A DNA stretch of 64,000 bases from Apostichopus japonicus (Eukaryota; Echinodermata; Holothuroidea; Aspidochirotida; Stichopodidae): assembly GCF_037975245.1 (NCBI RefSeq), contig NC_092562.1, positions 4,084,001 to 4,148,000 of the forward strand, read 5' to 3'. Numbering within the stretch: the stretch's first letter is position 1; each line of letters opens with the position of its first letter. Both the position numbers and the translations under genes were made by a program. The notes below the pieces were generated by a model. It made no database searches. It had not been told where the DNA came from and saw only the letters and a program-made list of their open reading frames with translations. Shown one piece after another: positions 2,214 to 55,000 of the stretch.

Positions 2214-3657
2214 ATGACCACAATGGAGAAGAGGGCGCCACATATCAGTGGGAAGGGAAGCACAATGGCGCATGGAAAATCAAGTCTATTTGACATCCCG
2301 GCTAAACTGGATCCTGTGGGATCAAGCCTTATATCCTTAGCTGTGGCACCTAATCTTGACATGGATTACGTCACCAAGCCGAAAGTGGAATATGAAAATA
2401 CGTACAGGATGGATCCATTGGACAGGTGGGCAGGAGTTTTCTGCTTCTTTACCAAATCTGTGTCCTCAAAATCCTTTGGCACAAGTTTGATTTGTCATTT
2501 CTCAAAGATGAAAATCGTTCTGATAGTAGAAAGTGGCAAGGAAAAACTGACTGTTACTTCATCTAATTGCTAGCTAGCAAAATTTGGAGCAGGTGAAACA
2601 GAGCAGTGGACTGTTATCTGTTCCATACCTAACCATATGTCTGTCTGTGTCACATATATATCTTTTGCATTGTTTTGTGTATATCTTTCGCATCGTTTTT
2701 TGTATAATATCGCAGCTTTTTTAAAACTATTTTACTTGGAAGAAATATCTATTGACTTTACAATTGACAGATTCCTTCCTGAGAGAGTCAAACCAGTGAT
2801 ATATGAGCTTTTAAGCAAGCACCTCAGTAACATGGAGTACGAACCCATCCAGTGCTCGTCTGTAGCCAAAGTCATCGCTCAGGAGCTAAAGGTCAGAGTG
2901 AGAGAAATGAATTTCCACAGGTTCAAGGTAAAATATTCGATTAATGCAGCGATTTATTAGATTCACATCAGTTGGAATACATCTTGATACGGCTATTGCT
3001 TGGCGTAAGCGGTGACCCCGCAAACTCTATAAGTTCCTGATTCAAAGCCTCACCAGGAACCGTATTTTCCATGGACCTACTCTAAACATGCCACTATGCA
3101 GTGTTGTCGAGCAGGTCTACCATTGATCAGTATTTCTGGTCTGCCAATAGGAATCAGGAATGGGTTTTCCAAACGGCTGTGAGACCTTAACTTAAGTTTA
3201 CATATAAAGTAGACAACTTGTGTAAATATCTATGTTGCCCTACCAGGTGTTTTCTTTTCATACTAATAAAAGTTGATATAATATATCATAATTTGAAAGA
3301 AAATAATTTCATGGAGAGGGGAGCTGGCATGGTGTGGGATGGGTGGGTGGGGGGGGGTGGGATTGCATGGAGGAGATTGCAAAAAATACATCCCATCATA
3401 TTTAGCAATGGGAGTTATTTTGTACTTAACGACCAGTAGCTTTATGCAAGTTCTATCATTGTTAATAATATTTGCAACACTTTTCTACTTATGGTTAGAT
3501 TATCTCTCTGGTCAGTGTGGGTGAGAAACGGAGCCAAGATGTCCGCCAAGGGAGCAGATGTCTTTGGGATGCCGAGACAGATAATTTTGCCTCGACTTGT
3601 TATGAGAATCCCCATATCTTTGCCACAGCGACTGTCTATGCAGTGTACTTTGAGTAA
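2214..3657 (+). CDS. Tctex1-domain dynein light chain (DYNLT family), 3 coding exons, 175 aa
   Basis: Coding exons are 2214-2425, 2771-2927 and 3499-3657 (intron phases 2 and 0); all introns are GT-AG. They join into 175 aa, about the length of DYNLT5/TCTEX1D1-type proteins. Residues 1-60 are a variable N-terminus. The Tctex1 domain begins at ENTYRMDP (about 61) and runs to the end. It includes the family hallmarks GSRCLWD and the terminal FATATVYAVYFE. The second and third exons are phase-compatible across the FK|II junction. The start at 2214 is supported by an in-frame TGA immediately upstream (2211-2213) and by length. Proteins of this family bind dynein intermediate chains and act in cytoplasmic or ciliary dynein. 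Which DYNLT subtype this is cannot be settled by eye. Intron 2 contains a G-rich run near 3340-3360. Confidence 0.9.
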
Positions 3658-26167: not shown

Positions 26168-27577
26168 CTACTGTACCTCTTTTCTTTGTCTAATTTTGCC
26201 CAATGTGCCTTTTCCTGACCTCCCTTTTCTTCTTTGACTTTCTGCTTCATTCGACTGGGTGAACCCTTCTTTCTTACTCCGAGCAGATCCAAGAAATATA
26301 TCAACGATTTCATCAGCTGTCCTCGACTTCTTACCACTCGCAACGCTGCTTAAACTCGGCCAACTCGACATGGTCTTACCATCTCCGTTAGATCCCCGCA
26401 TCGCATTTTGTCGATGGTCCAACACTTTCTTGTCATCATCTCGTTCCTTGGCGCCTTTCTTCACAATAACCTGCGACAGAGCAACCTCTTGATGTATCGG
26501 AGCGACAGCCGTTTTCCGATAAGAATCGGTTACTTGTAGCTCATATTGACGGAAAATCTGTTTAAAGTCATCCAACCATGGTTGGGAGTTGTAATGTTCC
26601 GGTAATTGGTGCATCTTCAAACCCACTGGTCTCGTTTTCTTTCCAGTGGATATTCCGCCCGGTACTCGATTCGCAGAGATCACCGCATAGTTCAACGGTG
26701 ATGGCTGGTATTTCACTTCTATCGTGTACTTGCTCACCGTTTCAGAAACCCAGTTGCGTTTAATCTTCTCTATCTTAATACTTCTCCTACATTTAAGCAT
26801 TGGTAGTTTTTCTTGACGCGGTTCCGTTGTTGATGATGAACATGATGACGATACCGATGAGGAAAGGCTTACCGAGCGAGTAAACCATGACCCGTCGTTT
26901 GAAGAAAGAGATGAAATTAAAACATCTGTTGGCGAATTCTGCTTTCCTTTGGAGTTCTCCAACCAAGGTTTTTCGTAAAGGCTTCTTTTCCTTTGCCTTG
27001 CCTCGACTTCCCTGTCTCTTTCAGTGGCCCACTTTTGGGCATTCCATCCGAGAATTTTATCGCAAACGGTTTCATCGGAAAGGCCGACATTGCGAAGAAC
27101 AGAACTGCATTCTTTGTGTCCTAGCCTACAAGCTTCCATTAGAGGTGTCATACCCCATTTGTTTGGGATATCCATTGACATCTTGAAATGCTTCAATCTT
27201 TGAACGATTTCGTGCGTAACGACGGCGTCGCCTGCAGATGCCGCATAGAACAGAGCAGAATTGCCGAAACGATCAGTATCATTAATGTTATAATCAACAG
27301 CATTGAGAAACAACCTAACCAATTCGAGGCGCTGGAAAATAGCTGCATACATAAGACCATTTCTCCCAGATTTATCCTTCATCCCGATCAATCCTCCATT
27401 TTGTAGAATCATTCTAGCAATTCCGACCGCCCAATCTTCCTGGCATAGAAATGTACAGGTAATGAGTGGAGTTTTCCCTTCATTGTCTCTTACATTAACA
27501 TCCATACCAGCCGAAACCAACAGACGAATATCGTGAAACTGACCTTTCCGTATTGCAACGTGTAGTTCAGACTCCAT
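26168..27577 (-). CDS. intronless ankyrin-repeat protein, ANKRD34-like layout, 469 aa
   Basis: A single uninterrupted frame starts at the ATG at 27577 (MESELHVAIRKG) and ends at 26168. The frame is open further upstream, to 27646, but that codon is TTG, so the ATG giving 469 aa is preferred. Residues 1 to about 170 contain four to five ankyrin repeats with typical phrases: NEGKTPLI, DKSGRNGLMYAA, DRFGNSALFYAA and NKWGMTPLMEACRLGH. The remainder is basic and Ser-rich (SSLSSN, SLSSSVSSSCSSSTT near 250-275) and probably disordered, with a Lys/Arg-rich C-terminus. One exon and N-terminal ankyrins followed by a long disordered tail recall vertebrate ANKRD34 genes, but I cannot confirm orthology. 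A scaffold role is inferred from the repeats only. No signal peptide or membrane segment is visible. Confidence 0.85.
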   Translation of the reverse strand: MESELHVAIRKGQFHDIRLLVSAGMDVNVRDNEGKTPLITCTFLCQEDWAVGIARMILQNGGLIGMKDKSGRNGLMYAAIFQRLELVRLFLNAVDYNINDTDRFGNSALFYAASAGDAVVTHEIVQRLKHFKMSMDIPNKWGMTPLMEACRLGHKECSSVLRNVGLSDETVCDKILGWNAQKWATERDREVEARQRKRSLYEKPWLENSKGKQNSPTDVLISSLSSNDGSWFTRSVSLSSSVSSSCSSSTTEPRQEKLPMLKCRRSIKIEKIKRNWVSETVSKYTIEVKYQPSPLNYAVISANRVPGGISTGKKTRPVGLKMHQLPEHYNSQPWLDDFKQIFRQYELQVTDSYRKTAVAPIHQEVALSQVIVKKGAKERDDDKKVLDHRQNAMRGSNGDGKTMSSWPSLSSVASGKKSRTADEIVDIFLGSARSKKEGFTQSNEAESQRRKGRSGKGTLGKIRQRKEVQ

Positions 27578-30500
27578 CTTAATCAGTAAATTAGTCAAGT
27601 GAAATTCCGTTTTAATCGAATTTGAAACAATGACAGTTTTATCCAATTTATTAGGCTAAGAGTTACTCTTGATCTGTGTTCAGGTTTTTTTTCCCCATTA
27701 GAATAGACTTTGTTCGGTAAGATTCAGTTGCGCTAAAGTAACGGTCGGGCTTGCCATCCTATAACGAAGTATTTAATCCAAAAACAAATGCCACCATATC
27801 AGCATCATATCAGTTGTCCTAACTTTGATGGAATTTTATTGTTATATGAGGACACACTGCCATTTTTCGTCGACGTTTTACAATCCCTATAAAGATACTC
27901 TTTCTGTTGTTTGGATGGATGCTTCAAACTCTGAGCCAGATACAGTCTATTCGGTTTTGTTATTCATGGTGTTCTATTTAACCACTGTGTTTGTTTCCAA
28001 GTCCCGTTGTTAGGAACGCTTACCAGGTTAGTTATATCTGTTACCGAAAAGTTTGTCAATGTTCTTAACGCACTCTCTGTCATGATAAACTGCTGGTTTA
28101 TCAACATTAATTGTTCGAACGCTCTTGTTTGCTTACCATCCAACTAAACAAACACTAAACTATCTGTAATTAAGATGGAGTTCCTCTTGGAGGGTTTGAT
28201 AGGTTTTTATTGCAACAAGAGAACACTCATAGGATCGTATTTACATTTCGGTTGAAGGATTTCACGAGGTGATGTTAAAGAAGCAACGGTAAATTGAGGA
28301 GGACTATTTTTGGCCTTGGTGAAAAAGGAGTCGGTTAATCAGGTGCGACAATTTCCGGACACGATCAACATTGAATAATTAGTATCCTTGGATGAATAAG
28401 GCGCGGATCCGGGTTGGGATTGGGGAGGCGTAGGTACGAATGCCTTCTAATAAATATTAACATGCAGGTAGAGGCTGGGTGATTGGCAAGAGTGTTCATT
28501 CTGGGGAAAGGAGGGGGGGGGGGGCTGGAGGACCCAAGCTTTAAGGGCAGTGGGGCATATGACTGATGAGGGGGAAAACCAGAAAATTACTTCAAAACTG
28601 ACTTACAATATGGATCTTCCGTGAATTTTGTATCATATATTCCCGTATATGAATACTTTTCAACAAAGGAATTTTCTGAATTGCATGTTTCTTGACTTTC
28701 GACAACATGAGCATTTATTATTTACAACAATATTACCATGTTTTATTTCGAATTCTTACTAAAGAACTCCTCGTAAATAACAACAGGTTCATCGTAATCT
28801 TAATTACAATTGAAACCGGAGCTTGTTCTCTACCAAAAGACGTTTAATAGGAAAAACAAAACTCTGGATGAGGTGCAGTGATCAGGGTTTGTCTTTCTAA
28901 AGTTGAGAGACATTGTTCCCTTGCACTTCAGGTATTTTACAGGCATTCCTATGCAAATGCGGTTGTTTGTCACACGTTCCACAATAAGTGCCAGATGTTA
29001 CCGGGTATTTTCAGCAAGCAGCAGTTTCCATGTACGTTGTATTATAACGAGATGCTACTTTCTCTTCTCCATACAATGGTAACTGAGTTGAGCAGCTTAT
29101 AGGCAATAGCCATATCATGTAAGTCTGTATCTGTAAAACTTCGCATCTCGGTACTTTTCTCCGTCTCATATATTGGTTTTGACAGGTTGCAGGTGTTTAT
29201 TAGTTTTTAATCTTTGTTCCATGTATTCTGTCTTCGTGTTGTCAGCAGTTTTCCGTCAGCGTTCATTGTGTGTAGCTTATACAGATCCTCCGTACCCCGG
29301 GTTCCTCTATATAACTATACCCATATATGCAAGTTGAAATGAGGTATGAAAACTAATCGGGCGGCTAAATTGTCATAATTTTAGCGAATTTTAGGGTTAG
29401 AATACCCACAACTATATCCGTCCATATGACTTACGATTTATTTAAGAATATTTTGAACATTGTTTGTGTTATTTTCATGATCTTAAGCGCTGTCTGAAAT
29501 GTACAGGATTTTCAAAATGAGAAATGATCCACGACCCACCAGACCCCTCCCTACCCCTCAGAATCGAAACGTTTATATAGAAGCATTATTGGTCTGTGTA
29601 TCGGTATGTGTTGTGAATGAGAAATTGGATTTTGTAGTTATAGATAATGTAGGTAAGTTTTAAAAAGAAAACCGGTAAAAAATTATAATGATAAAGGAAA
29701 GGAATCAAGCGACCCATCAAATTGTTTCGCGACCAACCTAAATGTGTTCGAGACCCATATATACTGAGTGACAACCCAAATAGTTTGAGTACCCTCAGTC
29801 TAAAATCTGATATCCGATGTTCAAACTATAGGGAAAGATGAATTTTCTTTTATTTCTCGCTGTTCAAAAGCAAAATTGATACTAACAGATCGTACATGTT
29901 CCATAATAGTCCAATTTTCATAAATTTTGACAGTTTTACACTGATGATTTCATAAAATTAGTTGTGCATTTTCATGTTGGCAACTCACATGCAACTAACT
30001 AAAGCTAAATAGCTAGAAGCAATATCTTTCTCAATACGGTATCGCTAAACCATGGATCCTTACCTCAGATATTTTTTGTTTAATCGTTAGTTTTAACACA
30101 CATTTCCAGCGTAGAAGGTAGTATATGCCAGTTGGGAACTTTACCTATATGCTGTTGCCGTCTTGGCTTTAACGAATGAAGTGTGAAAGTCAGTTTTGTG
30201 ACGTGCCACACCTTCATGTCATCTATACATTAGATCTGAGACTGACAAAAACATTTTAGTCTCTTTGAATTACCTGGAAAGGGGAAAAGGGAAATTGTTT
30301 TTCATACTTTAAATCATCACTTCGTGTAATAACCAGTGACTGTCGAGTCACTTGAAACATAAAATGTTACCAAGGCTTACTTTAGGACTAAAAGAGATTT
30401 AGTAAAATTTTCGAGAATAAATTGTAGAGATGTAGAGTAGTAATTCATGACGCTACTTTCAACAGGAACTAGGAAATGTCCATCATTCATTCATTAATTG

Positions 30501-33269: not shown

Positions 33270-36200
33270 TTATTGGTTCTTACAGCATATTTTGCGATAC
33301 AGCCACAAGCAATTTTCTCTGATCGCATTTCGAATTCTTGGATTTAGTAGGGAGTATATCACAGGATCCAACGCTGAGTTTGAATATCCTAACCACATAG
33401 AGAATACACCGATAGCGTGGGCGTAGTCCGTACCTTCTACAATCACGTGGACGAAATAATATGGCGCCCAACAAACCGTGGTAGTCAGGATAAGCAACCC
33501 TCCTGTAAGCAAAACAAAACCCACAAGTGCAAACATATAAACATAATTTTACAGTGATTAATATATAGGAACAACAGTAAATGGTACAGGCCTATATGAA
33601 ATTATGACATTGAAAGAAATAGACATATTTCATATTTTAACTGGATTCCATCAACTCAGATTGATGGTAAACAAATTCCGAAAATTGTAAAAAAATAATT
33701 TTCTTTAAACAAAATAAGAAAAAGCAATCTTAAATGTATTCTATTGGTAAATGATTAAAAGACACAGCCTGTATACCGAATGGCTTAACCGAGGATGCAG
33801 ACTCGTCGCTTCTGGATACTCTACGCGTCATTATAGTTTGTATGCAGTATATACACAGCATTAAAGAACAATACAAGATTTTGGACTTGCGAATGACGTG
33901 GATACGACGCATCTTTATTCCTGAGAAAGATACTTGTTGTTTATTCACAGTGAGTTTGTTGAAAAATGCAACCCAATGGCATATAACATGCTAGTCGATC
34001 GATGAATGAAGTCATTGCCCGGGCCTAGTTTGGCTGATAAGTGCGATCATTTGGTTTAAATGACGGGAATCATCACTTGGGGCCCATGGACATTTGATGG
34101 GGACGGGGAGGGGGGCTGGAGAAGGATATCCTGGATTGAATTTACATTCACTTTTGTTTAATGGTAACCACATAGAACAAAGGAATACCATGAAAATACT
34201 GCAGCCAAACGTGTCACACTTTCAATTGATTTCACATTTATATATGATGTTTGTCGGAATTTGCACTATAGATAACAATTTTGCACTATGAGAATTAACA
34301 ATTGATACAGCTATAATTAACGAAAAATTTAATAAAAATATAGGAAAAAATGTCAATAACATGATTAAAAAATCAAAGTAATCATCATAATAAGTCTCAA
34401 AATAATATTTTCAAAACATGAGAATGAATTTGTAACTACTACAAAGAAAACAAAAATCATCATCAACATTCGGTCAACTTTACCTGTCAATGCAACTCGT
34501 TTGTCCGTGCCCAATTTAGTATTCGTCATACTTCGTCCATGGTTTGTTAAAGAACGGTTGCCGCCATCAACCGTCTTATGCCTATCAATATCTGCAGTTT
34601 CTTCAGCATTGCGGTATAATGTATTTCCCTCAACAACTTTACAGTTCATCGCGATATCCAGACTGGAAATCACGTGGTCGTCTCCCACCGTTTCTGCGAT
34701 GTTACCAATGTTGTCGGATGGACAGTTATCATGTCTTACATCCGCTCTGTCATCTGCGTCGCGTCGGGAGAAGGTGGTTGTCGCGGTTACTATCTTCTTC
34801 GACGATATGTCGTCCACTTGATTGTACTCATTGATGTGAGCATTTGCATCGTCCATACCGGAATCCGCACCATTCATTTGGTCATGGACAGACACTGCAA
34901 TGTGAACCAGTGCGTCATCTCCCCTTTCACTATCTGGACATTGGTTAACTGACCTTGCTCGATTATTTTCGGTTTCTACTTCTAATGTTGGAGTCAGGAT
35001 ACCGCAGTTATTTCCACCTTGCACACGCTTCGGTTCCATACATTTTGTATGCTTAAACTGTTTCACCTGGCCTTCCCTTTTTCTTATTTCTCGAATAATT
35101 AAGATATAACTTACTACCATAACCGGCACCGTGACACCGTACAACAGTACAACACATACAATGTTGAAAATATCGGAACCCTTCCAATCGGGCGAACAGT
35201 GATGTGTATCAAAATTGTACTTGCCCACCGCAGAAAAGTTTGCGTATGTGGTAGGGCCAGCTATCATGGCAGAATACACCCATGAGCAGGTGATCATTAT
35301 GACAGCATGCACCCTTCGAATTCTTATTTTATGTGCGAAGACTATTCCAATACATCGGTTCACAGCAATGAGTGTTACACCGGAAAAGTTCCCGTACAGA
35401 GCGAACAAGGCCATGAAACAATTGAACTAGATTCAGGGAGAAGAAAAAGAGGAAAGCATGAAATTCCATAACCCAATACAAATATAAATGGCACCAAACT
35501 TGATACACGGGAAAAAAGGCAACGTTGGCCACTGTTTTTCTTGCTCTCTGTAAAGTTTAAAACAATTACAAGTAATTTGTATGTGTTTATAGAGGAATGG
35601 ATAAACTTGGCATAATGCCGGATACAATACGGTTTGAAAATATGTAATGGGTATCTAAAAGAACTAAGAATTTAAGAAACCACGAACTTGGCTAGTGATG
35701 TGTACTATTACCTATTACCTTTAAGAAGAGAAGTTCACTCAACTTGCACTGCTGCAAAATTGAGAAGTTACTTTAGAGAGTGTCCTCACTCACCCCCTTC
35801 CTTTCCTACCCTTTCCAACCACAATTCCCTGAATCTGCGCTCCTAGTTTAGTCGAAGTCTGTCTTTGTTTAAGGGTAAAGAATCTAAAGAGGAACCTTCT
35901 TGGACACGGTATGAATGTGAATTTTTCTCTCTGAAGTCAAGAACGTAAAACGCCACATTAGTTCAATGAATTTCATTTTGATACTACTAGTTGACGCACA
36001 ATTCATTACTGTATATTCAGTGTCCCAAAAAATGAAAGTATTTGTCTGTACATGTTGTTATAACTTACCCTACAGAAACCACCGTAGCTCAGCAAATATC
36101 CTTCATGGAATAAATCCGCTAGGCTAAACGACATACTGAAGAAGCATACAACCAGGTCCATAATGCACAAGTTAACCACAAATGCATTGTGCAGATTTTG

Positions 36201-36356
36201 ACGTAGGCTCCGAACACGTAATATGGTTAATATAGTAGTAAAGTTACCAATCAGCGCAAGGGCCATAATCAGGATCAATGAAAGTGCCTCAAAGAAAGCA
36301 GCAACTGCACTGCCTCTGTGTTGAGGATCTGTACCACTTTCATATGCCGAAGACAT
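33270..36356 (-). CDS. rhodopsin-family GPCR A, 3 exons, 487 aa, long ICL3
   Basis: Minus-strand exons: 36356-36069, 35426-34484 and 33502-33270 (phases 0 and 1). The ATG is at 36356. TM1 is about 19-45 (LIGN). TM2 has NLCIMDL with Asp2.50. Exon 1 ends just after the ECL1 Cys (GGFC). TM3 ends in NRC (119-121) instead of DRY. ECL2 contains HCSPDW. TM5 ends near 208. An unusually long, polar ICL3 of about 200 residues follows. TM6 has VCWAPY and TM7 has SALDPVIY in place of NPxxY. TM3 has no Asp3.32 and TM7 has no opsin Lys, so it is neither aminergic nor an opsin. It shares both intron positions with receptors B and C but is clearly the most diverged of the three. Its ligand is unknown. Similarity in style to melatonin/moody-type receptors (NR motif) is weak. 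Confidence 0.88.
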
Positions 36357-38261
36357 TTGGAAATTTTTTGATATACTTGACGATAACGATGAAAACTGAA
36401 CTCACAACAAGCTCACTGTAACAGATGATACATTAGATCTTAAAAATCTAGAAAGTAACTGGTGACACAGTTGCTTCTGTCCATCCATTTTAAGTACACG
36501 AATGCATAACAGAAGCTGAATCACCGTTCAGGAAGACATTAAATGTACCGGCAACTAATGATATCCAAAGAAAGTATAGTCCCGAGTTAGTCCTAGGACA
36601 AAAATAGTGGAAACGTAATTCGTTATTTAACGTAATCCAAAGTCCTGTCAATATTTCGTTAACGGCACCAACAGGAAAAAAAAACAACATCAAATTAAGG
36701 TGAAGTGTTCATGCCAGACTATATACAATATGCATATTTCCTGTTAGAACTATAGTCCAAGCTACATAAAACATATATGTACATGGAAAGCAATTTACAT
36801 TGAAACAAAACCGGTGCATAGTATAAACCACTATTGCATAAATTGCAGCAATTGGAACGTGAAGAGAATTGCAACAGTCAAAATCCGACTAGCCTCAGTC
36901 ATTACTAGATTTCATATTACTTGCAATAATGGGGAAATTGTACCTTTGGAAATTTATCATTGATATTAACAGCTTTACAAATGTACGCCACGGTTAATTA
37001 CATTTGTCAGTGGGCTAGAAACATAATGGAAATTAAATTTTGACACAACTCGATCAAAATATCCTCTATATCCGAGAAACGGCCTAGTGGTGAGGACTTC
37101 ATTAGCGTTTGTGACACTTGAGGTAAGTGGTCTGTGTGTTTTAAAATAAATAAAACCTCTTCAAAAATGCATTAGGTGATTGGAAAAGGTAGGGATCTTT
37201 CCTCTATTAATGAAAATATTATTATTATTATGTTGCTTATTGTAAAGTCTGTTTTTAATCAGCACTGACCTAGCAAATCGATCCATTTCGTTGATTGAGT
37301 GTCTCCTTACATACTTTTTTCCCCTACTAGGTTACTTCTAAGATTTCGGTTTGGTGTTAGATGAGCTTCATATAGTATGCATTGCCTCCTGTTTCATATA
37401 TTTGACACGAACTGTTAGATTAATTCCGTTACTATCTGCTTAGCGAAATTAATGACCAAATGTCAAATTCGATAATTTTTCTACAGATGCCCATAACCGG
37501 TCATCACGAAGTAGAAATATATATTATAGACTACGTGTACATACCATTATTATTTCTTTCATTAACATGACCATACAAACATAAAGGAGGTACAAAGAAA
37601 TACGTTGCATTTGTTGCTCCGTATTCGTAAGTGGAATATAGCTCAGTGAAAACCCCCTCTCTCTGCCCTAAAATTTGCTCTAGATGGTATCGAAACTTAT
37701 CCTGTTTCTATTGCTAAAATAAACACATGGCTACGTCATTTTAGAAAGTTTAGAATGTTACATACAAACATATAATCATAACCAATATTGAACACCAGTT
37801 CCATTTGTTAATCGATTGTTTCGGTTATTATTCCTAGTAAGCATCAGTCCCTTGTAAATAATAGATTTGCAAATGAAATGAAATAAAAGATTAAATTAAT
37901 AATACAAAGCCTCGACATGGCCTACGAAAGTGGAAGGAAGTATACAACGGTATTAGATGTCAATTTAATTCGCTGCACTTTGTATACTTTCTTAGTTTGT
38001 AAAATTCCGTGTACAATTAATTAATGAGGAAATGTTCGTAAAACTTTTAAAGCAAGTGCCTTTATGAGATACTCGATATGCAGCCTGCAGAGTAATCTGT
38101 AAACCGGTAAAATCCATCGCATGTTTCCGATGTTCATGCAGATTTGACGCTTAAACAAAATGCCTTACTGTTCCATCATCAAAGTATTATTGGAGATTTC
38201 CATTAACGCAATGCTCGTGTCGAAAGGCAAAAGTCTGTAAAGCTCTCCCAAGCATGCAATG
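36357..38261. other. spacer between GPCR A and GPCR B
   Basis: About 1.9 kb without a recognised exon. It should include the promoter of GPCR A (right of 36356) and the 3' end of GPCR B (left of 38262). I found no leftover receptor exon that would mark a dead fourth copy. Confidence 0.5.
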
Positions 38262-40849
38262 TCAATGTCCTGTGTTGCAACTGTACCTAATCCTTTCGAA
38301 AATGCATTTGTAGCTTCTGACCAATGCGGTGTGCAAGCCACGGTTAAACATGGAGTAGATAAGCGGATCTATTGCACTGTTAGCATGCGATAGAAAACGG
38401 CAGATGATCCAGACATGATGGCTTGGATTAACTTTATCAGATAAGCACATTGTTATCTTCAATATGTTGTACGGGGTCCAGCATACTAAAGTAGTGATGA
38501 TGACCAAAGCACCTGTGAATAATAAAATAGGAAAAAAAACAACCTCTATATTTGTTTTGGCGTGCAGAGAGCAGAATTTTTTAATTAAGCTTGGGGGGGG
38601 GGGGCTGGGAGGGTTCAATGAAAAGTTTATTAAATAAAGTTGACCAACTAACGTGTAGAAGAAAAAAATGCAAGTAATGTCTCAGTTTTGGAGCAAACCA
38701 TGAACCTTGCTGCTTCATGTTAAGAGGTAAGCCTCCATTCACAAATTGAAGAGATCAAGGAGAACGCTTACCTGCAATTGCCACCAGTTTATCCGCTCCT
38801 AACACTGATCTCAATTTTTGGTCTCTCTTCTGAACAGTGCTCTTACTTTTGACCTTTGACCTCTTGGAAGTGAAACTTGGAGGGTCCATCGTCGACCCAG
38901 CTCTTCGAAGAGTGTAGCAAATCTCTTGGTATTCTTTTTCATATTGATCCCAATTATTGATAAACACTCCTTCACTTTTGTCAGCTGAACTTTCATTTTT
39001 GGGTGCTGCCTTATCCTCTATCTGAAAAACTTGAGAGGATGATATTTCGGGATCCTCTTGAATACCGCGATTGGATTCTCGTCCTGTCAGTCTCCTTATA
39101 CTGCTTCTAACTCTTCGTCGAAAAGTGTCGATTTTGCTTTGTGATTTTCGTATCTCTATTGCAATACTCCCGTAACAATAAATCATTACCGGTACAACGA
39201 TGATGTAAGGGATTAAACTTTTAGCCAGCAGCACATAACAATTTGAATTCTCTGCGGCATTTACCGTACAGCTATAAGTGTTTTCGTCATACACTGGTTT
39301 GGATGACAATGCTACTGTCAGTGAAGTCACTGCTATCGCAGTCGAACATGACACCGCAATCATAACATAGGAGTGCTTGACTGTGATATGTAATCTATTT
39401 GATTGGACGACAAGAAAATACCGATGGACGGCAATCATAATGATGGCGCCAAAATTCCCAATGTAAAATACGCTCGAGAGTAATACAGTGAGCTGTGGGT
39501 TTAACAGATAGTGAAAAGATTAAAAAGAAATCAGTCATTTAGAAATGGAATGAGACTAATAAACATATCAAACTACACACTGATCATGTTATCCTATACT
39601 GAATACATACAGCATTGATTATGGGAGCTAATTCAGTTTCGTTTATCCATGTTCTAAACCGAAGTAATTCAGTTAACTACGTTAGTATTGATGTGTTTGG
39701 AAGAAAGTAAGGTGTACTGAAACCTATATTGATCATCTAAGGACTTTAAATTTCTATGTCTTCCTCTGTAGATATTCTTAAACAGCAAAGACTGATGCAT
39801 GTGCAATACTATTGGTATATCGTACAATGAGTTTATGTATGTTAATTCATATACCCTTGTGAAAGAGGTTTTGTTAGAGAACAGTCGTTGACCTGTGACA
39901 CATTACAAGGTAACAACGCTTATAGTTAAAAGACAGTCTTTGGATTTGTCGCTGACCAAATTTGCATATTTGGATCAACTTTTGCATATCCTCTGAAATT
40001 ACATATACATTTCGACTCTAACCAATTCAGCGAAGAACCGCTAATATTATTTCTCAATTTCACTTGTTCTAATTGATTAGAGGACACTATTACCTGGTAC
40101 TGATTAGAGTTCCTTTATGAAGGAACTCTAGTACTGATACTGAAGAGTATGGCAATCACAGACTCTATGTCTCTACATGTCTAGTGGACCACATGTGTGT
40201 CTAAAGATATACATTGGCCATGATTGGCTCTTAAGTCTATATGTGATTGTGGAGAAATATTTTACGCCATTTTTGGAAGCTATAAATCTATGTTGACACT
40301 ATACATGGCGGAAACATTTTCAGTGGGAAGTTGCAAAACATATGCTATGTCCATGTGTATAATTGATGAGAGACGATTTACAAATACATGAGAGCTTTCA
40401 TTATACTCTTCTCGAATAAGAAATACTCTCGTTTAGTATTGTTGACAAATGAATTTCTATATGTTTTGATCAGATTAGGCAAGAAAAGGGGTACTTACGG
40501 TACAAAGGAAGCTGCTTTCTTGAAGTAAGTGTCCGTTATTGAGAATAGCGAAAAACGTCACCAGTGTGACACATAACGAAGTTCCCAAATCGCACACTGC
40601 TAAATTGAAAATTAACAGATTGTGTCCATTTCGACGGAGACTTTTATCATGCCATATGACGATGATAACTGATAAATTGGCAATTATCGCTGCTAGCATA
40701 ATTACAAATACCGATATTGATTCCAAGGCCTTCAACAACGGCGAATGCAAATCACTCGGCCCTGTGGTACTACTTGAAGCTGTGGCTTCCGTGCTGAACT
40801 GGTTTAATTCCGAAAAAGGAAAATGTGTTGAATTCATTGTTACCGACAT
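38262..40849 (-). CDS. rhodopsin-family GPCR B, 3 exons, 440 aa
   Basis: Minus-strand exons: 40849-40499, 39492-38772 and 38512-38262 (phases 0 and 1). The ATG is at 40849. The extracellular N-terminus (about 45 aa) is Ser/Thr-rich with an NST glycosylation sequon. TM1 has IIANLSVIIVI. TM2 has NLAVCDLGTS with Asp2.50. Exon 1 ends after SSFLCT. TM3 ends in HRY (140-142) instead of DRY, followed by FLVVQSNR. ECL2 has two Cys. ICL3 is about 130 residues and contains EIRKSQSKI, SSIRRLT, WDQYEKEY and CYTLRRAGS (RRxS/T, PKA-type sites). TM6 has VCWTPY and TM7 has SAIDPLIYSMFN. The C-tail is short with Cys residues that could be palmitoylated. It is a close paralogue of GPCR C. The ligand is unknown; position 3.32 is Ser, which argues against an amine receptor. 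Confidence 0.9.
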
Positions 40850-41376
40850 TGTGGTTGGTTATTGATCCTTGTTAATGAACGAAGTATGATTTTTTTCCCT
40901 TAAAATTCACTTCCTTTGTACATATGTACTTCAGTCTACACTTTATTGTGTCCGCATATAATGTCAGACTAGTTACAAAGGTTCATGCTAAATGATATAT
41001 ATTTTCCGTACGAAACGAGGTTTTATTTAAACGCTTGTGATCTGTATATTACAAAACGAGTATGTACAACAAAAACTGATTATTCTATTGTCTATTGACA
41101 GTTTGTTTCTTCTTCACTCGGCGAATGGCTCTCCATATCGAGTATAGTTATAGTTACTTCCTCCTTTTGTTTACAACCTGAAAGTGAAAACAGCTTAAAA
41201 CCCTAAATGATGAATGCGTCGTATCACTACAACACCGAGGTTGATACGAAGAGCATTGTATTTGTTGTCTTAATCATTGAAGAGACAATTTCCTTCAGAA
41301 GCCATTATCATTTTCATTTTCCTTCTTTTACCAGGACTTTCGAGTCGAATGATCAATTACACATTTGTACTGAATT

Positions 41377-41467
<91 letters not shown>

Positions 41468-43878
41468 ATATGCCTTTGATATGTGGCTGGCTACAAATGC
41501 AAGTTAACTGACATTTAATGACCAAGAATATGGTTATTTTGATGTTTCGACGTTACAACAGGCGTTGATATCATGACGAAGCAATCCGATACATTCAAGA
41601 GCAAACACATTATTTAACCTATAGACAACGCACAGAAGTATCAAATCCAGACATAGGCCTGGCATATACCTAGTATGAAGTAAATAGCTTAATATGTATG
41701 TTAATATGTAGCCTAAATTATAGTGTGTATAGTGTACACATAGCCTGTGTACGACTATACTATATAATATATGGCTTTTAGTTTCAAGCTTATTATGTAG
41801 TTCTAGCTTATTATGCAAAAATGGAACGATTTTGCCATGCATTTTCTCTTTAACTGTTGCATCTCCTATACCTTTATTTAACAACCACATGCAACTGCTT
41901 TACGCAGTTTTGTTTAGTTATGTATGATAAAGGTTATGATGCGATTCGATAGAAAAGTCCATAGGTACTGTAATTCATTGGTTTTAATAGTCATGAACTT
42001 ATTCAATATTTTATAATAACGGAGTATGAATCACTGCAAGTTTTTTTTTGGCTCTGGGATTGCAATTGGTTGTGATAAATACTAATACGAACATGTCTGA
42101 GCTACAAAATATTGACAATCAAACTATACACATTGAATACTAACTCATTTACCCACGGTCTTAGTACAATGAATTGTTATCATATATATTGAGGAAGGCT
42201 CTGTCGATTTAATGAAACTTTTAACTGACAGATGCTTTAAAGACAAATATGTTAATTGGAATGGCGGGAAGTATGTCCATGTAGCACTTAACAATAACAA
42301 TTATGTAAATTAAGATAACATTTAAACACAACCGGGAGCATTTCACATATAGCTTTAGTAAAGCTGCTAAGCCTACCGTATGTTATGTAGTATTTTAAAT
42401 ATTTGTTGTTACTCTTAACACATTTACTGTTACAATTACATGTTATGCGTCCGTCGTGCACCTAACACATTAGTAAGTGTCTGAAAGTATCAACAAATTA
42501 AATATTTACCTAACATAGTTTCATTCTATCAGAACTATTGGCCTGCCTAATATATGGCCACAATTCGATGGTAGTTTGTTAGTGACATTATAAGGTAAAT
42601 GGCAAATGGAATTTCGTAAATTAAAAAGATATAATCCTGCATTTTTAAAACAATACTACATGTATAACTAAAGAAACAAACTGTACATGTTGAAGATAGA
42701 CCAACCAACTAATTCTTACATCCTATAAATTGTATAGTTTCATATAAAGTTTAGACTACAGTTTCTCCTTTTAAACATTAAATTTATGTGCGGAAAAATT
42801 AATAACATCGCCTCGGATATGCGAGAGAGTGAAATATTAGTCTGTCATACCATTGTTCTCAACTTCATCAAACAACTCTTTGCATTCTGTGTCCCAACGA
42901 AACTTTCCACTGACAAATTTAATTCTCGGATTGAATATTACCTGACGATGAATACTCCAATAGAGTTATGACTAATTAATAAGTAATGAGTAACTTAAAC
43001 AGAGTTTGCATAATTAACATCTACTGAATATTTAACGTCTCGTGTAATGTCTGATCGACACGGGAGAATCACGGAGCTGGCCTAGAGCCATAATCTCTAT
43101 ATAAAGTAACGTCAAATAGTTCAATAGTCTAAGTTGCTGGTCACGAGGGTTAACGCATGCGTAATGCTACAATGGATTTGCTATGGTATATATGTATATA
43201 AAAAATGATAAATTGTACATCCTGTGCAAAGAATGTTTGGTCCAATTTGAAAATAATATTGAGGTTGTCCCTCGTGGTATTGTCTGTCCATCATTTTTCC
43301 CCAATCATCCCTGCCGGAGGCCCTTTGGTAAGTTGTGACCCTCTGTTACACACCTTTAAACCTTCACTCGGCGGCTGACTCTGGCGTATCTTAACCTTTT
43401 GCGTTTATCAGCCTGATAAAATCCATTTGAATAAGTTGCTAGAATTCTCAGGTCAATTTAGCAATGGACAGAAACAATCGGGTCAGTTTCTCTTTCCCTC
43501 TCGGTTAAGCAGACTTGAAAAAAGTTTGAAATCCGTTCGATATCTCGTTGTTATATTTAATAACTTGTTGTCCGGGGGATTGTATTTTATTGTCACCTTG
43601 TGGCTTGATAGCCTATTTTTTTTTATTGCTTTGGTAACGGGAAAAAAGATATCCAGGTCCTAACAACAATCGAACATATCTATCCGCAACTATAAGAGCC
43701 TTGGCACGTAAATACCTATTTTACTTTGCCTGTCTGCGGTCTAATTCCTCTATCAAAAATACTTAAGTGCCACCTCTTGAATGATCCGTGGCTCCCCTCT
43801 CCCATCCCATCCCATCTAATCCCATCCCTTCCCTCTTGTCGGGATTGCAGTATACGTAAGCAGAAATCATGCTCATTC
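40850..43878. other. spacer between GPCR B and GPCR C
   Basis: Three kilobases of AT-rich DNA without a recognised exon. The only clear structure is the 84-bp AT microsatellite at 41381-41464. The promoter of GPCR B should lie just above 40849. Confidence 0.5.
41381..41464. repeat. (AT)42 microsatellite
   Basis: An uninterrupted dinucleotide AT array of 84 bases, likely polymorphic and cruciform-prone. The open frames through it encode only alternating Ile-Tyr and are artefacts. Confidence 0.97.
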
Positions 43879-46800
43879 TCATGCATGACAACAAGACTTA
43901 ATCCGTTTGAAGAATTGTATGTAACCTCTGACTAGTGCCGTGTGCAAACCACGATTAAAAATGGAGTAAATAAGTGGATTTATTGCAGAGTTAGAATATG
44001 ATAGAAACCGGCAGATGATCCAGATTTGTTGACTAGTGTCAGTTGAGTCACAAAGCTTCACTTTCACGATGCTGTACGGAGTCCAGCATACGAAGGTTGT
44101 CATGACGACCAAAGCACCTAAGAGAACAATGAGAAGGAGGAAACTTTCAAGCTGACCATCTTTTCATCATCATTTTTTTCAGAGCACATCCAAAAATAAT
44201 ATCACCATTAAAGGCATAAGGTATGGAATGCGTCTAGGTGAAAAACGTTTCGTTCTTTCATCAACAGCGTCCTCTAATTTCATTGAGTTATTTAACAAAA
44301 GTGTACAGTGCCGTGAACAAAAGCATCTAGCGCATAGACCCAATACCACTGACGTCATTGGGTCATGTCTTTCATCACTTCAACAAATGTCTGAACCTAA
44401 AGGTCCGCATAAAGTCTATGGGCAACATGCGACAATACTCAACCATGTACGCAAGGGCAAAAAGAAAGTGCTTAACATCCACTTTACTTTACTTTTCCTT
44501 GCATACGTTGCGCTAATTTCAACATATCTAGCATTCTGACGAATTTTGCCGATATCTCAGCACGTTGCATCAAAGTTTACGGCACTGTAATGTTGTATTT
44601 TAATAGCGCGAATTTATTGTCTTTCATTTGTTAATCATTTATAACTTGATAATTTAGCGTAGCATTTTTATATTTGTAAGGCAATTTCAAACGTACCTGC
44701 AATAGCAACGAGTTTGTCGGCTCCTAAAAAGGACCTCAGTTTCATGTCTCTCTTTTGAACGATGCTTTTGCTTGTAAACCTTGACTTCTTGGTCGTCGTC
44801 AACCTCGACGGTTCTAGCATCGACCCAGCCCTTCGAAGAGTGTAGCAAATCTCTTTGTATTCTTTTTCATATTCGTCCCAATCTGAGATGTACAATCCTT
44901 GACGTTTGTCAACTGAACTTTGACTTGTGGGGGTGGCTCCATCCTCCTCAATCCGAACATCTTGGGAGGTTGATATTTCGATATTGTCTTGAATACCAAG
45001 ATTGCGGTCTCGTCTTGTCAGTCTCCTTATGCTGCTTGTAACTCTTTGTCGAAAAGTGTTGATTTTCGCCTGTGATTTTCGAATCTCTAATGCAATGCTC
45101 GTGTAGCAGAAGATCATGAGCGGTATAACCAGTACGTAAGGAAAAAAGATGGCAAAATATGACAGACGACAATTTTCAGACCAGTCTTGACCACAGTGAT
45201 GAAGGAAGTCGATGTATACGACTTCAGTTGTCCATCCCGTCGCAGACGGTACGGTTAAGATTACAGCAACAGCCCAAGATATTGCAATCATGACGTAGGA
45301 GTAAGTGATTGTGACGTTAAATCGATTTGATTGGACGACCAGAAGGTAACGATGGAGAGCAATGGAAATTATGGCGCCAAAACTTCCAAAGTAGCAGACG
45401 ATTGAAACTGACACGTTAAGCTGCGGGTTAACGAAAAATAATACGCAAAATAGTTACATATATTTAGCAGCTAAACAAAAGGACTAGATAATGAAATTTG
45501 TTTTTTTTTTAAATTTCCAAATGATGAAAGACATGTCGAAGAATAGCAGCAACAACAAATACGAAGTTATACGAAATTACTTGCATGTCAGAATGGATTG
45601 GTGAACTATTTTGTAAAGGTGTGACTCGAAAAGCAATTTTTTGGAAAAATGTGCGCAATAAGGTCAGATTACTGTTTGGAATATTTCAATTTGAATTTGG
45701 AACTCCCAAATCTGCGTCGAGAACAGAGGAGGGAACTCAAGGAGAATATGTTTGTAAGGCTCTAGCTGTTACTTTATTGACACTGTTGTCTTGTAATGTC
45801 GTTGTTGGCTCTATAGTGCGTTATGATTTCAATATGTTTCTCTACAAAACCGAAATTTGCAATCAATATAATCAGCATGCACCAACGTACAGCAACAAAG
45901 AATTGATTTTTCTTCATGTGGTGTATAGTATTTTAATGTTCGACATACACATGCATGTGATAGTGATATATGCTTCTATATATTCAAGAGAAGTCATATA
46001 CTTATGGCATATAGGCGGATACATGCTTGCCATATATAAGACATATATGTGACTTTAATAGGTGGGTGGAAGAGAGTAGGAATTTGAATGATAGAATGTC
46101 CAAAAGAGAAAGAAATGTGCAACAGAATGCAACAGATCGCAAACGAGGCAACTGTTAAGTCAATTCAGGTACACGGATGGCATGATAGTTCTGATGAGCA
46201 TGTGTGCATGAACACAAATTTAAAGATACAAACAAAGTAAAAATGTAGCGATAAAGAGTGCTAATATTCTTTCAGATTTATATCTTCACTTACCGTAGGG
46301 TGTTTACATGCAGGAATCAATATTAAAGGGTTATGACCTAGCTAGTTGCGGAACCAGGATTTAAAAAAATGAAGGGATATGGACCTGCATGGACGACTGT
46401 TAAAGCGGTCCCTTTGTGAAGGGAGATGCAGGGTTCTCCCTCAGAACAAAAAGGTAATATTTTTAACATGCAAATGATACATACTGAAGCATATTTGTAT
46501 TTTAATGAGGTTATCATTAGGTCTACACGCAAGGTTGTTCTTCATAAGTAATATAGGCTTTTTAGTGTATAGACACACACACACACACAAACATCCTATA
46601 CTGAATCCGATCAACTAAATCTTTAATAATCCAATATGTCATACGAAACGACAACCGAAATATGAATCAATACGAAATATGAAATATGCATAATACAGAT
46701 AGTCGTATTACCAGCTAGGCTACCACATCGATACAGTACATAGGTATACTGTACCTGTACATATTAACAAAACAATCCATGTGCGTACCAATACTTACTG

Positions 46801-47152
46801 GGGTCGTGTTCAAGTTTGCGGAGCAATATTGAAAGGTAAAGAAGATATGACTCACCGAGCAAGCCCACATATGTTGACTAAGAATCCATCCTCCTTTGAA
46901 ATTAGCTATAAACGAGACCAGCATGGATCCGATTGACGTACCTAGATCGGCGACCGCTAAGTTGAGTATTAATATATTATGGCTATTTCGACGTAAACTT
47001 TCATTTCTTAAGATGACAATTATGACTGATAGATTGGCAACTATCGCAGTAACGATAATTGTCAGAAGTATTGTTGATTGTAAACAATTTAGCTTTGTAT
47101 CCGGATCCATGTCACCAGTATCATTAGTTGTCAATAACGTGGTATTTTCCAT
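43879..47152 (-). CDS. rhodopsin-family GPCR C, 3 exons, 419 aa
   Basis: Minus-strand exons: 47152-46856, 45420-44697 and 44117-43879 (phases 0 and 1). The ATG is at 47152. The N-terminus has NTT and NDT sequons. TM1 has IVANLSVIIVI and TM2 has NLAVADLGTS. Exon 1 ends after WACS, directly following the conserved ECL1 Cys. TM3 ends in HRY (122-124), followed by LLVVQSNR. ECL2 has HCGQDWSENC. ICL3 contains EIRKSQAKI, SSIRRLT, WDEYEKEY and CYTLRRAGS, closely matching GPCR B. TM6 has VCWTPY. TM7 has SAINPLIYSIFN, the canonical NPxxY that A and B lack. The C-tail ends in a Cys pair. Intron 1 (45421-46855) contains a 155-codon open frame on the other strand that I regard as chance. Confidence 0.9.
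46569..46589. repeat. short (AC)n microsatellite
   Basis: About nine AC dinucleotides, inside intron 1 of GPCR C. No other significance is seen. Confidence 0.8.
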
Positions 47153-48337
47153 AGCAACAGGTTTTATCCACGGTTATAAGAAATTATGAATCGTTCGACA
47201 GAGATTCACTGCGGTTAGCCTACAAAGTTGTATAAGCTAGTTTAAAGTTGTTTAAGCTGGTCACATGCACTTCTCACAAGATGATCGAATACTTGTATAA
47301 GGTCCATACACAACTTATACGAAATAAAAAATACAAGGATAGTGTATGCTACGTACACATGTGCCATAAACAGATTAGGCTCTAAGATTTACATGCATGT
47401 GTTGGTATAAACAGCTTAGTCCTCACGAAATACATGCATTGTCAGATATTGCAAACTCGATCTTCGGACATATAGGCCAATCGACAGGACATTACCACGA
47501 TTGTAACTGGTAAAATATATATATTGGTTGCAATCTTGGATGTTGGCACACTAGATTGCAAAAGGTAAATGATATCCATAAGTGAAAGTTACATATTTCC
47601 CCTTTTCTATGCGTCTGTAAAACGCTCAAAGTTGTGGGTTTAGTGCATCAACCGTTAAATCGCTTCCTCTTATGTACGGTAAACTGGAAAGTGAAACTGC
47701 AGCACTGGCCTATGATATTATAAGGTGACGTATCTTTGAACATGGATAAAGGCGTCGTGATATACCGCCGAGCTATAAACATTTGAAGTTTTCAGACATA
47801 AATTCATGTAATAGTGTTTGTATTCCGTTGCTATATATAAGCTTCTGGGAGTTTTAACAGATCATAATAATAGTTTATTTAATAATAAGTTTCAGTTGTT
47901 CAAAGAAAACCGACTCCTTTGCTTTACTTTTTTTTTCTTTACGAGACGAACGATAACATAGGTATACCGTGTATGTAGTAATTAACATATAGAGCCGATA
48001 GTTTTATGTTGTTTTCAAATGTCGCAGCCCCATACAAAAGTTGGCCTCGAGTGGGTATCCACGACGAAATTTGTACGTACGGATATTTCTGTTTGACGGT
48101 GTTATATACTGTATAATTCATCACTCCAATGAAGGGTAGTGAAATGTGATACCGTACCTAAACTTCACACTTCTTGGCATGCAAGATATTCAATCACTGG
48201 AACCAATTAGTGCCATTAGAGCCAAATGATTTCCCCTCCCTTTTCCCGGACTACCCTTCTATGTGTGTTTTCGCTGTACAATAAACATTAATATGTTGGG
48301 CGTTTTGCAGTACATTACTTTCCCTTCCGTGTCGCTG
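47153..48337. other. spacer between GPCR C and the GATATC array
   Basis: About 1.2 kb with no recognised exon. It separates the divergent starts of GPCR C (minus) and TTC4 (plus) and probably holds the GPCR C promoter. Confidence 0.5.
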
Positions 48338-48877
48338 ATATCACCAAATCATTTGTTGATATCATCAAATCATTTGCAAACAAATGGTCGAATTGCTGAT
48401 ATCATCAAATGAATTGCTGATATCATCAAATAAGACATATCTCCATAGGCTATCAATTGGTGATATTATCAAATTATTTGCTGATATCATCAAATCATTT
48501 GTTGATATCATCAAAACATTTGCTGATATCACCAAATCAATTGCTGATATCACCAATTAATGAACGATATGTAGAATTACTGATATCAGCAATTCATTTG
48601 ATGATATCACCAATTCAATTGCTGATATCATCAATTTATTTGATGGTATTATCAAATAATTGGTGATATCATCAAATATATGTTGATATCATCAATTATT
48701 TGATGATATCATCAAATAATTGGTGATATCAGCAAATGAATTGGTGATATCAGCAATTGAGTTGCAGATACCATCAAATAATTAGTGATATCATCAAATA
48801 TATGTTGATATCACTAATATTTTCTGATATCATCAAATTGGTGATATCAGCAATTGAATTGATGATATCATCAAAAA
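48338..48877. repeat. 540-bp cluster of GATATC palindromes upstream of TTC4
   Basis: By hand count there are 21 exact GATATC hexamers plus several one-base variants in 540 bases. Most have the form TTGATATCATCAAAT or CTGATATCAGCAAT, about every 22-30 bases with AT-rich linkers such as AATCATTTG. Each core is itself palindromic (TGATATCA) and many extend to TTTGATGATATCATCAAA. The array ends about 170 bases upstream of the TTC4 ATG. It is a satellite-like repeat. Open frames across it (Ile/Ser-rich on both strands) are artefacts. Confidence 0.93.
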
Positions 48878-52000: not shown

Positions 52001-55000
52001 CCACTATCCGGCCAGATAGTCCGGCCGGACCGGATATCCGGTGCATCCCTACCAACAGATACTTTCAAGACTTTCAAGCATTATGAAAAGTTTTAGCTTA
52101 CTTTATCAAATGTCTTTGTGGCATTAAATTTACATGTGTGATTGGAGATCAACAGAGCTGTGTTCTAGTGAATGGCATTTAGTTAATCAATCAATTCTCT
52201 TTTGCCTCAGTTGTGATTGGTTGGTTAAGATTCTTGTGTTGTAAATTTTTCACTTTAGAATTAGCTCTAGAGCACAAAGAAGATGGCAACTATCAGTTTA
52301 AGAAGAAAATGTACAGGTTGGCAGTCAAGGCCTACACGGAAGGTATCAAACAAAAATGTGAAAACACTGACTTGAATGCTGTGCTGTACACAAATCGAGC
52401 AGCGGCTCACTTCCACCTCGGTAAGGTATTATTTTATCATGTTGTGCGATAGTGAGATGAGGTTGTGAAATCTAATTTGACTGTCACAGAATTATTTGCA
52501 AACTTAAAGATTACTGAATTTTATTCTCAAATTCTTTCTGTTGTCACTTTTCAAAACTCAAGGGAGGTCACCACAGGTCAAAGTAATAAACTCTTGTGAG
52601 TGTAATACCCCCCCCCCTCCCCAACCCCCGTAAAGTAAAATATATATAAATAAATAAATCTTGGATAAACTTTGTACTTGGTATGTAGATTTGCTTAAAG
52701 ACAGGAAATTCTTTGGGTTTCTGACTTTCTGTTAAAGTCAGTGATCAGAGTACAAAATCCGTGTAAGAAGTTCCTGATGAGTGCAAGAACCTTACTGATC
52801 ACATGAATTCATTAGTAGGCAAAACCTGAAACTTTTTCTGCAGCCCAACAATAAAATGTCTTTATGTGAAAATGTGGCAAGGAATCACTACTTAGCCGTT
52901 TGGCTTTAATACCTGTTCACTTTGCAATAATCACTACAGGCTTAATGACTTTAATGACTGTGTGTATTTTGTGTGTATAAGTGAGTGGAATCAATAAACT
53001 ATTAGGGTATTAAACTCACAAGTTTGTTATTAAGTAAGGGTTTTAGACTGCAAGTTGTATATCTACATTCATGCAGCAATTTAAGTTATTAATTTGTAAC
53101 TTTTATCTGAACTTCTTAAAGTCCTAGTGTAATATTCCTTCATGACATGATGACAATACAGTACTTAGATAATTCTGCATGAGAACTGTGGCCAAAAGTT
53201 TACACACTCCATCGTGCTTGGTGTATTCTCTTGTTCCGATATTACTGTACTCTCATGTTTAAATTTACACAGTGTGAATCTCTGTTTTAGTTTGTTTCAC
53301 ACAAGTTTTCTTTTCATGTAACACAATTCCTTAAAAATCAGGTAAAAGTCTCTATAACTATTAAATTTCAAAGATTGACTCCTTCCCACCATCTCTCCCC
53401 CTAGAAAACTTTTTATCGTCTTTCAACGACGCCAAGCGAGCCCTTAGATTCAAGCCAGACCATATGAAGGCCATCTTTAGATGTGTGGATTGCTGTCTGA
53501 AAATGAGAAATTACGCGGAGGCGCTCCAACACTGTGACTCTGGTTTACAGGTGAGTGTGCAACAGAACACAGTTAATACACCTTATAGTGATGGGCAAGT
53601 TACGCAACAAACAATTAACATTTCTCCTCATTTGCTTACCCTTGAACCAACCCCCCCCCACCTCCATCCCAAATCCCATACCTCCAGCTAAAACCCAAAC
53701 AACTCATACACAGCACAACAAGTACAGCTAGACCTAGAGCTAAATAGTGGGACTGTTTTTGCACCCAAAAGTTTAGTATTGATTAATTGATTCTACAAAC
53801 ATTCATACCAACAACTGGACTTCAGACTGTGGTGAAAACTGTGGTAGTCCTAAAATCTTACAAAAATCTAGAGCAGCAACTGGACTAGGAATCTCTGGTG
53901 AGAGATACCGAAACTATGATTATAAAAAACAAATTATAGTATACTCCTTTCCTCATTCTTGGTGTGATTTGCAATATTTAAGCACAATTATTGAGTTCAA
54001 CATGCAGTGTATGTGGTCTCACTCAAATTCGCTGCGATTCGACCCAAGGCCACGGAAAACCTAAGTTGGCTGTACGACCCACTGACAGAATAGTGTGACA
54101 CTTTACCAAGAATGCATCAACTGATGTGAGGGACTATTTATCATTTCTTTTGACCTTTGAGCATTTACTGACTATGCCAAACGCAGCTTCAATGTAAATG
54201 TTTCACAGCATGTTAACAGTATATTAATAGTCTATACTGTACTTCCCATTGTGTTCCATTGCGGCTAGACCGTACATATCTCGCGACGCGTGCACGCTAT
54301 CTATAGCCCTTTAATTTCCCATTGTTTTTCCTCTGTCTACAGATAGTGCCCAACGAGAAATCTCTATTGGAGAAACGTGCCACTGCAGTTAAGCAAAAGG
54401 TAAGTTTATATTGTGTAACAGTAGAGTTTAAAGGGATATTTCAGTGGCAGAAACTGATTGTTAAGCAAAACTTGTTGTAGATTTTCTGCGACACTATATT
54501 GAAAGGGGAACCACATCCTGACAACACATTGTGTTGTGTGAAGATTTGAAAGTTTTCAGGTAAATTGTCACAAAGTGGAAAACATTGTATTGAGTGGTAT
54601 ATATCTCTAGAGGTAAATCGGCAGGTATATCTGATTCTGAAAGAAAAAGTCAGTAATGTCAACAAAACCTCTGTGCAGTTTTGTTTTCGTTTCTGGTTTA
54701 ATTTTCCTTGTCTCTTGCAAATTCTGGCATTGATTCCAAGTGAGTGACCTCTTGGAAGTGTCATTGAAACTTGAACAAGGATACCTTCAATGTACAACTT
54801 TTATGATCCCTTTGTAAAAACGAAAGCGTCTGATTTGTCTACAGTCGTGAAGCTTGCACAAGAAGAAAAAAAAAAAATGTGTATCTTGCAATCCATGCAT
54901 TGTCCAAAAGTCATATATATCTGAATTCAAGCAGTAAAGTATGTCAGATCATAGCTGTATTGCAGCACAATGTGCTAAATTTAAAACTTGTAAATGGAGT

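Follow-up and report, generated by a model that had tools for sequence, protein, structure and literature searches.

A three-exon family of class A receptor genes with a putatively altered activation core in the sea cucumber Apostichopus japonicus

Introduction

Ballesteros-Weinstein numbering and the roles of the PIF and DRY motifs are well established for class A G-protein-coupled receptors (GPCRs). Accessible parts of two papers lend partial support to these roles (PMC8786939, PMC5566548), and one of them links alteration of the acidic DRY residue to constitutive activity (PMC5566548). Among receptors of solved structure, those closest to the genes described here include the melatonin-related receptor GPR50, a member of the class A alpha group; GPR50 and MT1 resemble these genes in a non-acidic 3.49 (Asn in both). 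In vertebrates, an intron of melatonin receptor genes lies in intracellular loop 1 (ICL1), according to the available portion of PMC7541902. Aminergic receptors (5-HT1, D3/D4, alpha2) also score highly against the family. Echinoderms possess surreal-GPCRs and odorant-like receptors, which likewise belong to class A and show lineage expansions and some tandem arrays (PMC7042368, PMC5442662; both in part).

We analyzed a stretch of 64,000 nucleotides of the A. japonicus genome (hereafter the window; C2:4084001-4148000 of an assembly of 671,581,487 bases in 35 contigs) that carries three receptor genes, and searched the whole assembly for their relatives. The three share two introns and several unusual residues with genes that lie mostly elsewhere on the same chromosome.

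Results

Three intact class A receptor genes, here called A, B and C, lie head to tail within 14 kb on the minus strand of the window and encode proteins of 487, 440 and 419 aa from three exons each. When the models were rebuilt from the minus-strand sequence alone, all introns were GT-AG and no internal stops were found; an initial annotation of this DNA was thus right in the number, strand, ends and lengths of these genes. Receptor A (36356-33270) consists of exon 1 (36069..36356), an open reading frame that runs from the N-terminus to residue 3.26 and ends at the donor TGTAGG/gtaagt (a slash marks the splice site), exon 2 (34484..35426; acceptor ctag/TTC, phase 1 donor ACAG/gtaaag), which covers TM3 to ICL3 and the start of TM6, and exon 3 (33270..33502; acceptor acag/GA, stop TAA), which encodes TM6, TM7 and the tail. 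Receptor B (40849-38262, minus strand) has exons at 40499..40849 (donor TGTACC/gtaagt), 38772..39492 (acceptor cacag/CTC, donor GCAG/gtaagc) and 38262..38512 (acceptor cacag/GT, stop TGA). Those of receptor C (47152-43879, minus strand) lie at 46856..47152 (donor TGCTCG/gtgagt), 44697..45420 (acceptor cgcag/CTT, donor GCAG/gtacgt) and 43879..44117 (acceptor cttag/GT, stop TGA).

Pfam 7tm_1 is the sole Pfam family that the three proteins match at E 0.01; their scores, from lowest to highest, are 122, 124 and 136 bits, well over the cut-off of 30.5. The class A hallmarks N1.50, D2.50, R3.50, W6.48 and P7.50 are present in each. Receptor A is far diverged, as the initial annotation had said, with about 26% identity to B and C, and the latter two are close (55% identity). 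B and C are under constraint (dN 0.32, dS 0.90; dN/dS about 0.35), and their similarity is confined to exons, with none found in introns by blastn at E 1e-2.

Other features of the window were also mapped. On the plus strand, a SKP2-like F-box/LRR gene has exons at 17312-17623, 19175-19390 and 19594-19911, the joined pieces of which match SKP2 chains in the PDB with 79-83 bits. Also on the plus strand are tetratricopeptide repeat (TPR) exons and a C-terminal exon (together at 52183-52452, 53365-53691 and 56796-57053), the latter of which matches a solved domain of Tetratricopeptide repeat protein 4 (6hfo) with 31 bits; the best overall matches are other TPR proteins, and the gene at 52183-57053 is probably TTC4. 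A long single ORF of 495 aa with ankyrin repeats (26168-27655, minus strand) is possibly an intronless gene, and a Tctex-1 domain exon lies at 2574-2960 (plus strand). Repeats comprise a minisatellite of about 84 copies of a 17-bp unit (12034-13427), a 254-bp duplication (15186-15684) and a GATATCATC-rich array (48334-48875).

Alignment with MAFFT placed both introns of A, B and C in identical columns and phases (columns 117 and 435; phases 0 and 1). Intron 1 follows residue 3.26, with CR, CT and CS immediately before it in A, B and C, and intron 2 falls within codon 6.37. The shared positions and phases agree with those first proposed, except that intron 1 lies one codon past Cys3.25 of extracellular loop 1 (ECL1) and not directly after it. 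By our own arithmetic, if an intron is equally likely to fall at any of about 1,250 coding positions, the chance that two introns coincide between two genes is about one in a million. GPCR genes can gain introns in parallel at favoured sites, as the part of PMC3151243 available to us describes. Intron 2 lies at a CAG/G site in A, B and C; intron 1 of B and C is not at an AG/G site, which disfavours parallel gain there.

The two introns are not peculiar to this locus. The genome yielded at least 149 scored matches to Pfam 7tm_1, and searches with A, C and the later members G and L recovered at least eight further intact genes with both introns; this is a lower bound, since the best candidates were scored in each search and more members may exist. 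Six lie on C2, the 32.6 Mb chromosome that contains the window (D, E, F, G, I and J, at loci L047, L048, L049, L050, L052 and L053), one on C22 (K, L054) and one on C9 (L, L055). Both introns occur at the same place and phase in all 11 intact models, with lengths of 201-4610 bp. The initial annotation had read the intron map as the mark of a local cluster; it is instead a feature of a whole family, whose intact genes number at least 11 and lie mostly elsewhere on the chromosome. When 84 matches to C were compared by eye, each match starting near residue 99 of C was a family locus, 47 non-family matches spanned the intron 1 site and six others lay wholly in TM6-TM7, a comparison that is biased towards genes without an intron at that site.

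The class A family to which A, B and C belong thus comprises at least 11 intact three-exon genes, nine of them on C2, and two broken copies, H (L051) and G2, both on C2. The family has undergone birth and death: E and F are tandem near-copies, G2 is a second copy beside G with frame breaks, and H is broken too. In A and six relatives (D-G, I and J), the second extracellular loop (ECL2) carries the fixed motif H-H-C-[ST]-P-x-W. We scanned the genome with a DNA pattern for HHC-P-W and obtained 14 exact matches, against none for the reversed control. Seven of the 14 correspond one to one to A, D, E, F, G, I and J; the other seven lie on C12 and C13, at none of the family loci, and include two 21-mers that each occur three times. 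Searches of viral contigs and of genome contigs returned no relatives, as expected for an animal gene.

Class A frames were also seen at L074 (C2:4264500-4269600), about 130 kb from the trio, and at L075, L076 and L077. Each covers TM1-TM5 on one open frame that runs to ICL3 or just past it, and NR(Y/F) replaces DRY in all four. No TM6-TM7 frame was found in the stretches examined at these loci, where the second intron position was not located, and L078 had no frame that passed the filter.

We compared the family with other receptors in a tree of ten family rows, 29 local class A receptors and four human receptors. Of the near-copies E and F, only E was included, and J was represented by exons 2-3. 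Of 31 local receptors chosen by longest open frame, L059 (at 299 aa too short for the length filter) and L037 were dropped; because all 29 that remained lie on a single frame, the tree may lack near relatives with several exons. The ten family rows formed one clade (support 100/99), which was present in all 200 bootstrap trees examined. Together with the shared introns, this clade bears out the common descent of A, B and C.

The three receptors fit none of the types tested. Searches of the PDB gave top matches that score low and are of several kinds, namely GPR50, 5-HT2C and D3 for B (up to 59 bits, for GPR50), 5-HT1A for C (77 bits), and QRFPR and MT2 for A (66 bits at most). By comparison, A matches C with 154 bits and B with 128 bits, which places the three closer together than any of them is to a receptor of solved structure. 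The earlier view that they belong to no class that could be named held up, as did the residues given for it (Ala/Ser/Ser at 3.32, Tyr/His/Tyr at 7.43 and NRC/HRY/HRY at the DRY site in A/B/C). Aminergic receptors can be set aside, as Asp3.32 is absent from the trio and from the other eight members (Ala, Ser, Gly or Val) and the single human aminergic receptor in the tree and the local receptors with Asp3.32 fall outside the family clade; the family also differs from them in lacking the PIF Phe. Opsins can likewise be rejected, since Lys7.43 is absent in A, B and C and replaced by Tyr or Phe in the other eight.

It is conceivable that these genes already figure in the published receptor counts of A. 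japonicus, under the rhodopsin-type labels "melatonin", "opsin", "amine" or "unclassified", in which case only their structure and signature would be new. We give this somewhat less than an even chance, and it is compatible with the other readings. The published survey counts 231 rhodopsin-type genes in this species, 20 of them unclassified, but the accessible part of it describes neither a three-exon family nor a shifted proline nor an alternative last exon (PMC7042368). Nor was the family found in the literature on echinoderm and ambulacrarian GPCRs, surreal-GPCRs, intron position and HRY/DRY, as far as those sources were available in part. A search on sea urchin moody/Tre1 receptors found no literature, and none of the terms GPCR, melatonin and rhodopsin turned up in the H. 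glaberrima genome preprint (PMC13228809).

A further reading, which we consider rather doubtful, is that the genes encode divergent melatonin-like or other neuromodulator receptors for one internal small ligand or peptide, with the expansion reflecting tissue specialisation. GPR50 is the top PDB match to a ten-member profile (132 bits) as well as to B; the accessible text of the survey reports 14 melatonin-cluster receptors in the genome (PMC7042368), and conservation of the ECL2 signature in seven members would suit a single ligand. However, the lead of GPR50 is narrow, with NPFFR2 at 127 bits and D3 and D4 following, and NPFFR2 comes first with a three-member profile (106 against 96 bits for GPR50); PDB fusion chains with a TM5-TM6 insert probably score higher partly from whole-chain alignment. 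The MT1 pocket residues Asn4.60 and His5.46 are absent from A, B and C, which have T/T/S at 4.60 and, at 5.46, G/I/V if the TM5 proline is taken as 5.50 or L/P/P if the TM5 tyrosine is taken as 5.58. NAxxY is also absent, with D/NPxxY in its place, and exon 1 spans TM1-TM2 uninterrupted, so that the vertebrate ICL1 intron has no counterpart. Compared with MT1, MT2 and GPR50, the family further has the TM5 proline at 5.52 and Thr or Ser at 6.44. Both human members compared, GPR50 and MT1, fall outside the family clade in this tree and in a second one described below.

The family members appear to have an altered activation core. All 11 are gap-free across columns 5.47-5.58, with Tyr5.47, Pro5.52 and Tyr5.58. 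Pro is found at 5.52 in 11 of 11 family rows and in none of the 33 others (29 local and four human; one has a gap there), 30 of which have, by eye, a Pro two residues earlier. Position 6.44 is Thr or Ser throughout the family and Phe in 30 of the 33 others; 3.49 is Asn, His, Tyr or Phe in all 11 members and Asp or Glu in 29 of the 33. Asp7.49 occurs in ten members, and C has Asn. Two residues of the PIF switch, Pro5.50 and Phe6.44, which are common in class A without being required for membership, thus appear to be absent across the family. The TM5 register was first anchored on the Pro as 5.50, and the family alignment favours Tyr5.58 as the anchor. AlphaFold, run on C with A and B supplying the alignment, gave a poor model (pLDDT 44.7, pTM 0.39) that was not trusted; the register is taken from the family alignment.

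A separate substitution affects TM4. Cys replaces the conserved Trp4.50 in B (exon 39492-38772) and in J, and the other eight rows of the ten-member alignment keep Trp.

Two members carry candidate alternative last exons. Behind a single exon 1 and exon 2, E and F each have two intact third exons (2971-3182 and 5227-5438 of L048 for E; 3197-3408 and 5912-6123 of L049 for F). Each of the four has an AG acceptor in phase 1, ends in a stop and encodes TM6-TM7 and the tail. The two differ with dN 0.197 and dS 0.869 in E and dN 0.181 and dS 0.875 in F; with dN/dS well below 1, both would appear to be under constraint. The second third-exon is identical between E and F over 70 codons, within an aligned block of 697 bases that is 91.7% identical. 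We infer that the paired exons are used alternatively, although the second could instead be the remnant of a decayed extra gene of which only the last exon is left. Between the paired exons, family matches at E 0.1 are limited to short stretches near where exon 3 begins; some of these extend by a few residues into the last part of exon 2, and nothing else of exons 1 or 2 was detected.

The tree also bears on the origin of the trio. B and C form a pair (100/100), and A groups with D, E, G, I and J (96/76); K branches next, then B/C, and L is deepest. A second tree, with J complete and ten outgroup rows, gave the same order with weaker support for the place of A (80/49). B and C are clearly a local tandem pair, as had been proposed for all three genes, and A is probably an older, separate branch. 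That A, B and C arose as one local tandem series, with the other members as later exports, is unlikely: the head-to-tail order within 14 kb and the identical intron map speak for it and an A+B+C clade survives the AU test (p 0.072), but A groups with distant members that share its HHC[ST]PxW motif, and holding the three together lowers lnL by 8.2. A single tandem origin of the trio is thus disfavoured, not rejected.

Discussion

Our best explanation as a whole is that A, B and C belong to a re-wired three-exon receptor family in which A is an older branch and the ligands are small cues, a reading that we hold tentatively and give close to an even chance. In this model, the receptors would be seven-helix proteins that couple to G proteins, an expectation drawn from their retention of Arg3.50, the CWxP toggle and (N/D)PxxY. 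The triggering core would be re-wired, with the TM5 proline at 5.52 for 5.50, Thr or Ser for Phe6.44 and a non-acidic 3.49. Such a core is predicted to raise basal activity, which may follow from the lack of an acidic 3.49, or to alter the activation route. As ligands we would expect small chemical cues, of outside origin or released by other individuals, that are held beneath a lid formed by ECL2 and its fixed motif; family turnover and the paired candidate TM6-TM7 exons of two members may widen the range of cues.

A chemosensing role is possible, at somewhat under even likelihood. The accessible part of PMC7042368 states that the sea cucumber lacks vision and relies on chemical sensing. Against this role, none of the three window proteins contains the surreal-GPCR/OR-like motif LxxPxYxxxxxLxxxDxxxxxxxxP, and published sea cucumber odorant-like receptors are mostly single-exon, in contrast to the three exons here; the same partial source reports that the motif is only partly kept in echinoderm clades (PMC7042368). 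Surreal-GPCR or ApOR sequences may be among the 29 local comparison rows, and it is by motif and exon count that the family is set apart from them. Conservation of the ECL2 signature in A, D-G, I and J would fit one internal ligand as well as it fits chemosensing.

More specifically, a subfamily expanded in this lineage may have dropped the PIF switch, by the move of Pro to 5.52 and the loss of Phe6.44, along with the acidic DRY residue, while at least two members splice either of two TM6-TM7 exons; we regard this combined proposal as doubtful. If true, one gene would give two receptors that differ in the inner pocket and the G-protein face. The Drosophila receptor OAMB is a known parallel for alternative last exons (PMC2650798, in part). 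OAMB is an octopamine receptor, and the split in the sea cucumber family lies at 6.37 and is known from genes alone.

If the altered core is real, the family would show, as a natural experiment, how class A receptors activate when the usual PIF triad and the acidic residue of DRY are missing. The intron map is a clean marker by which the family could be followed in echinoderms and related animals. For a chemically sensing animal, this undescribed receptor set would be a candidate for the detection of cues or pheromones.
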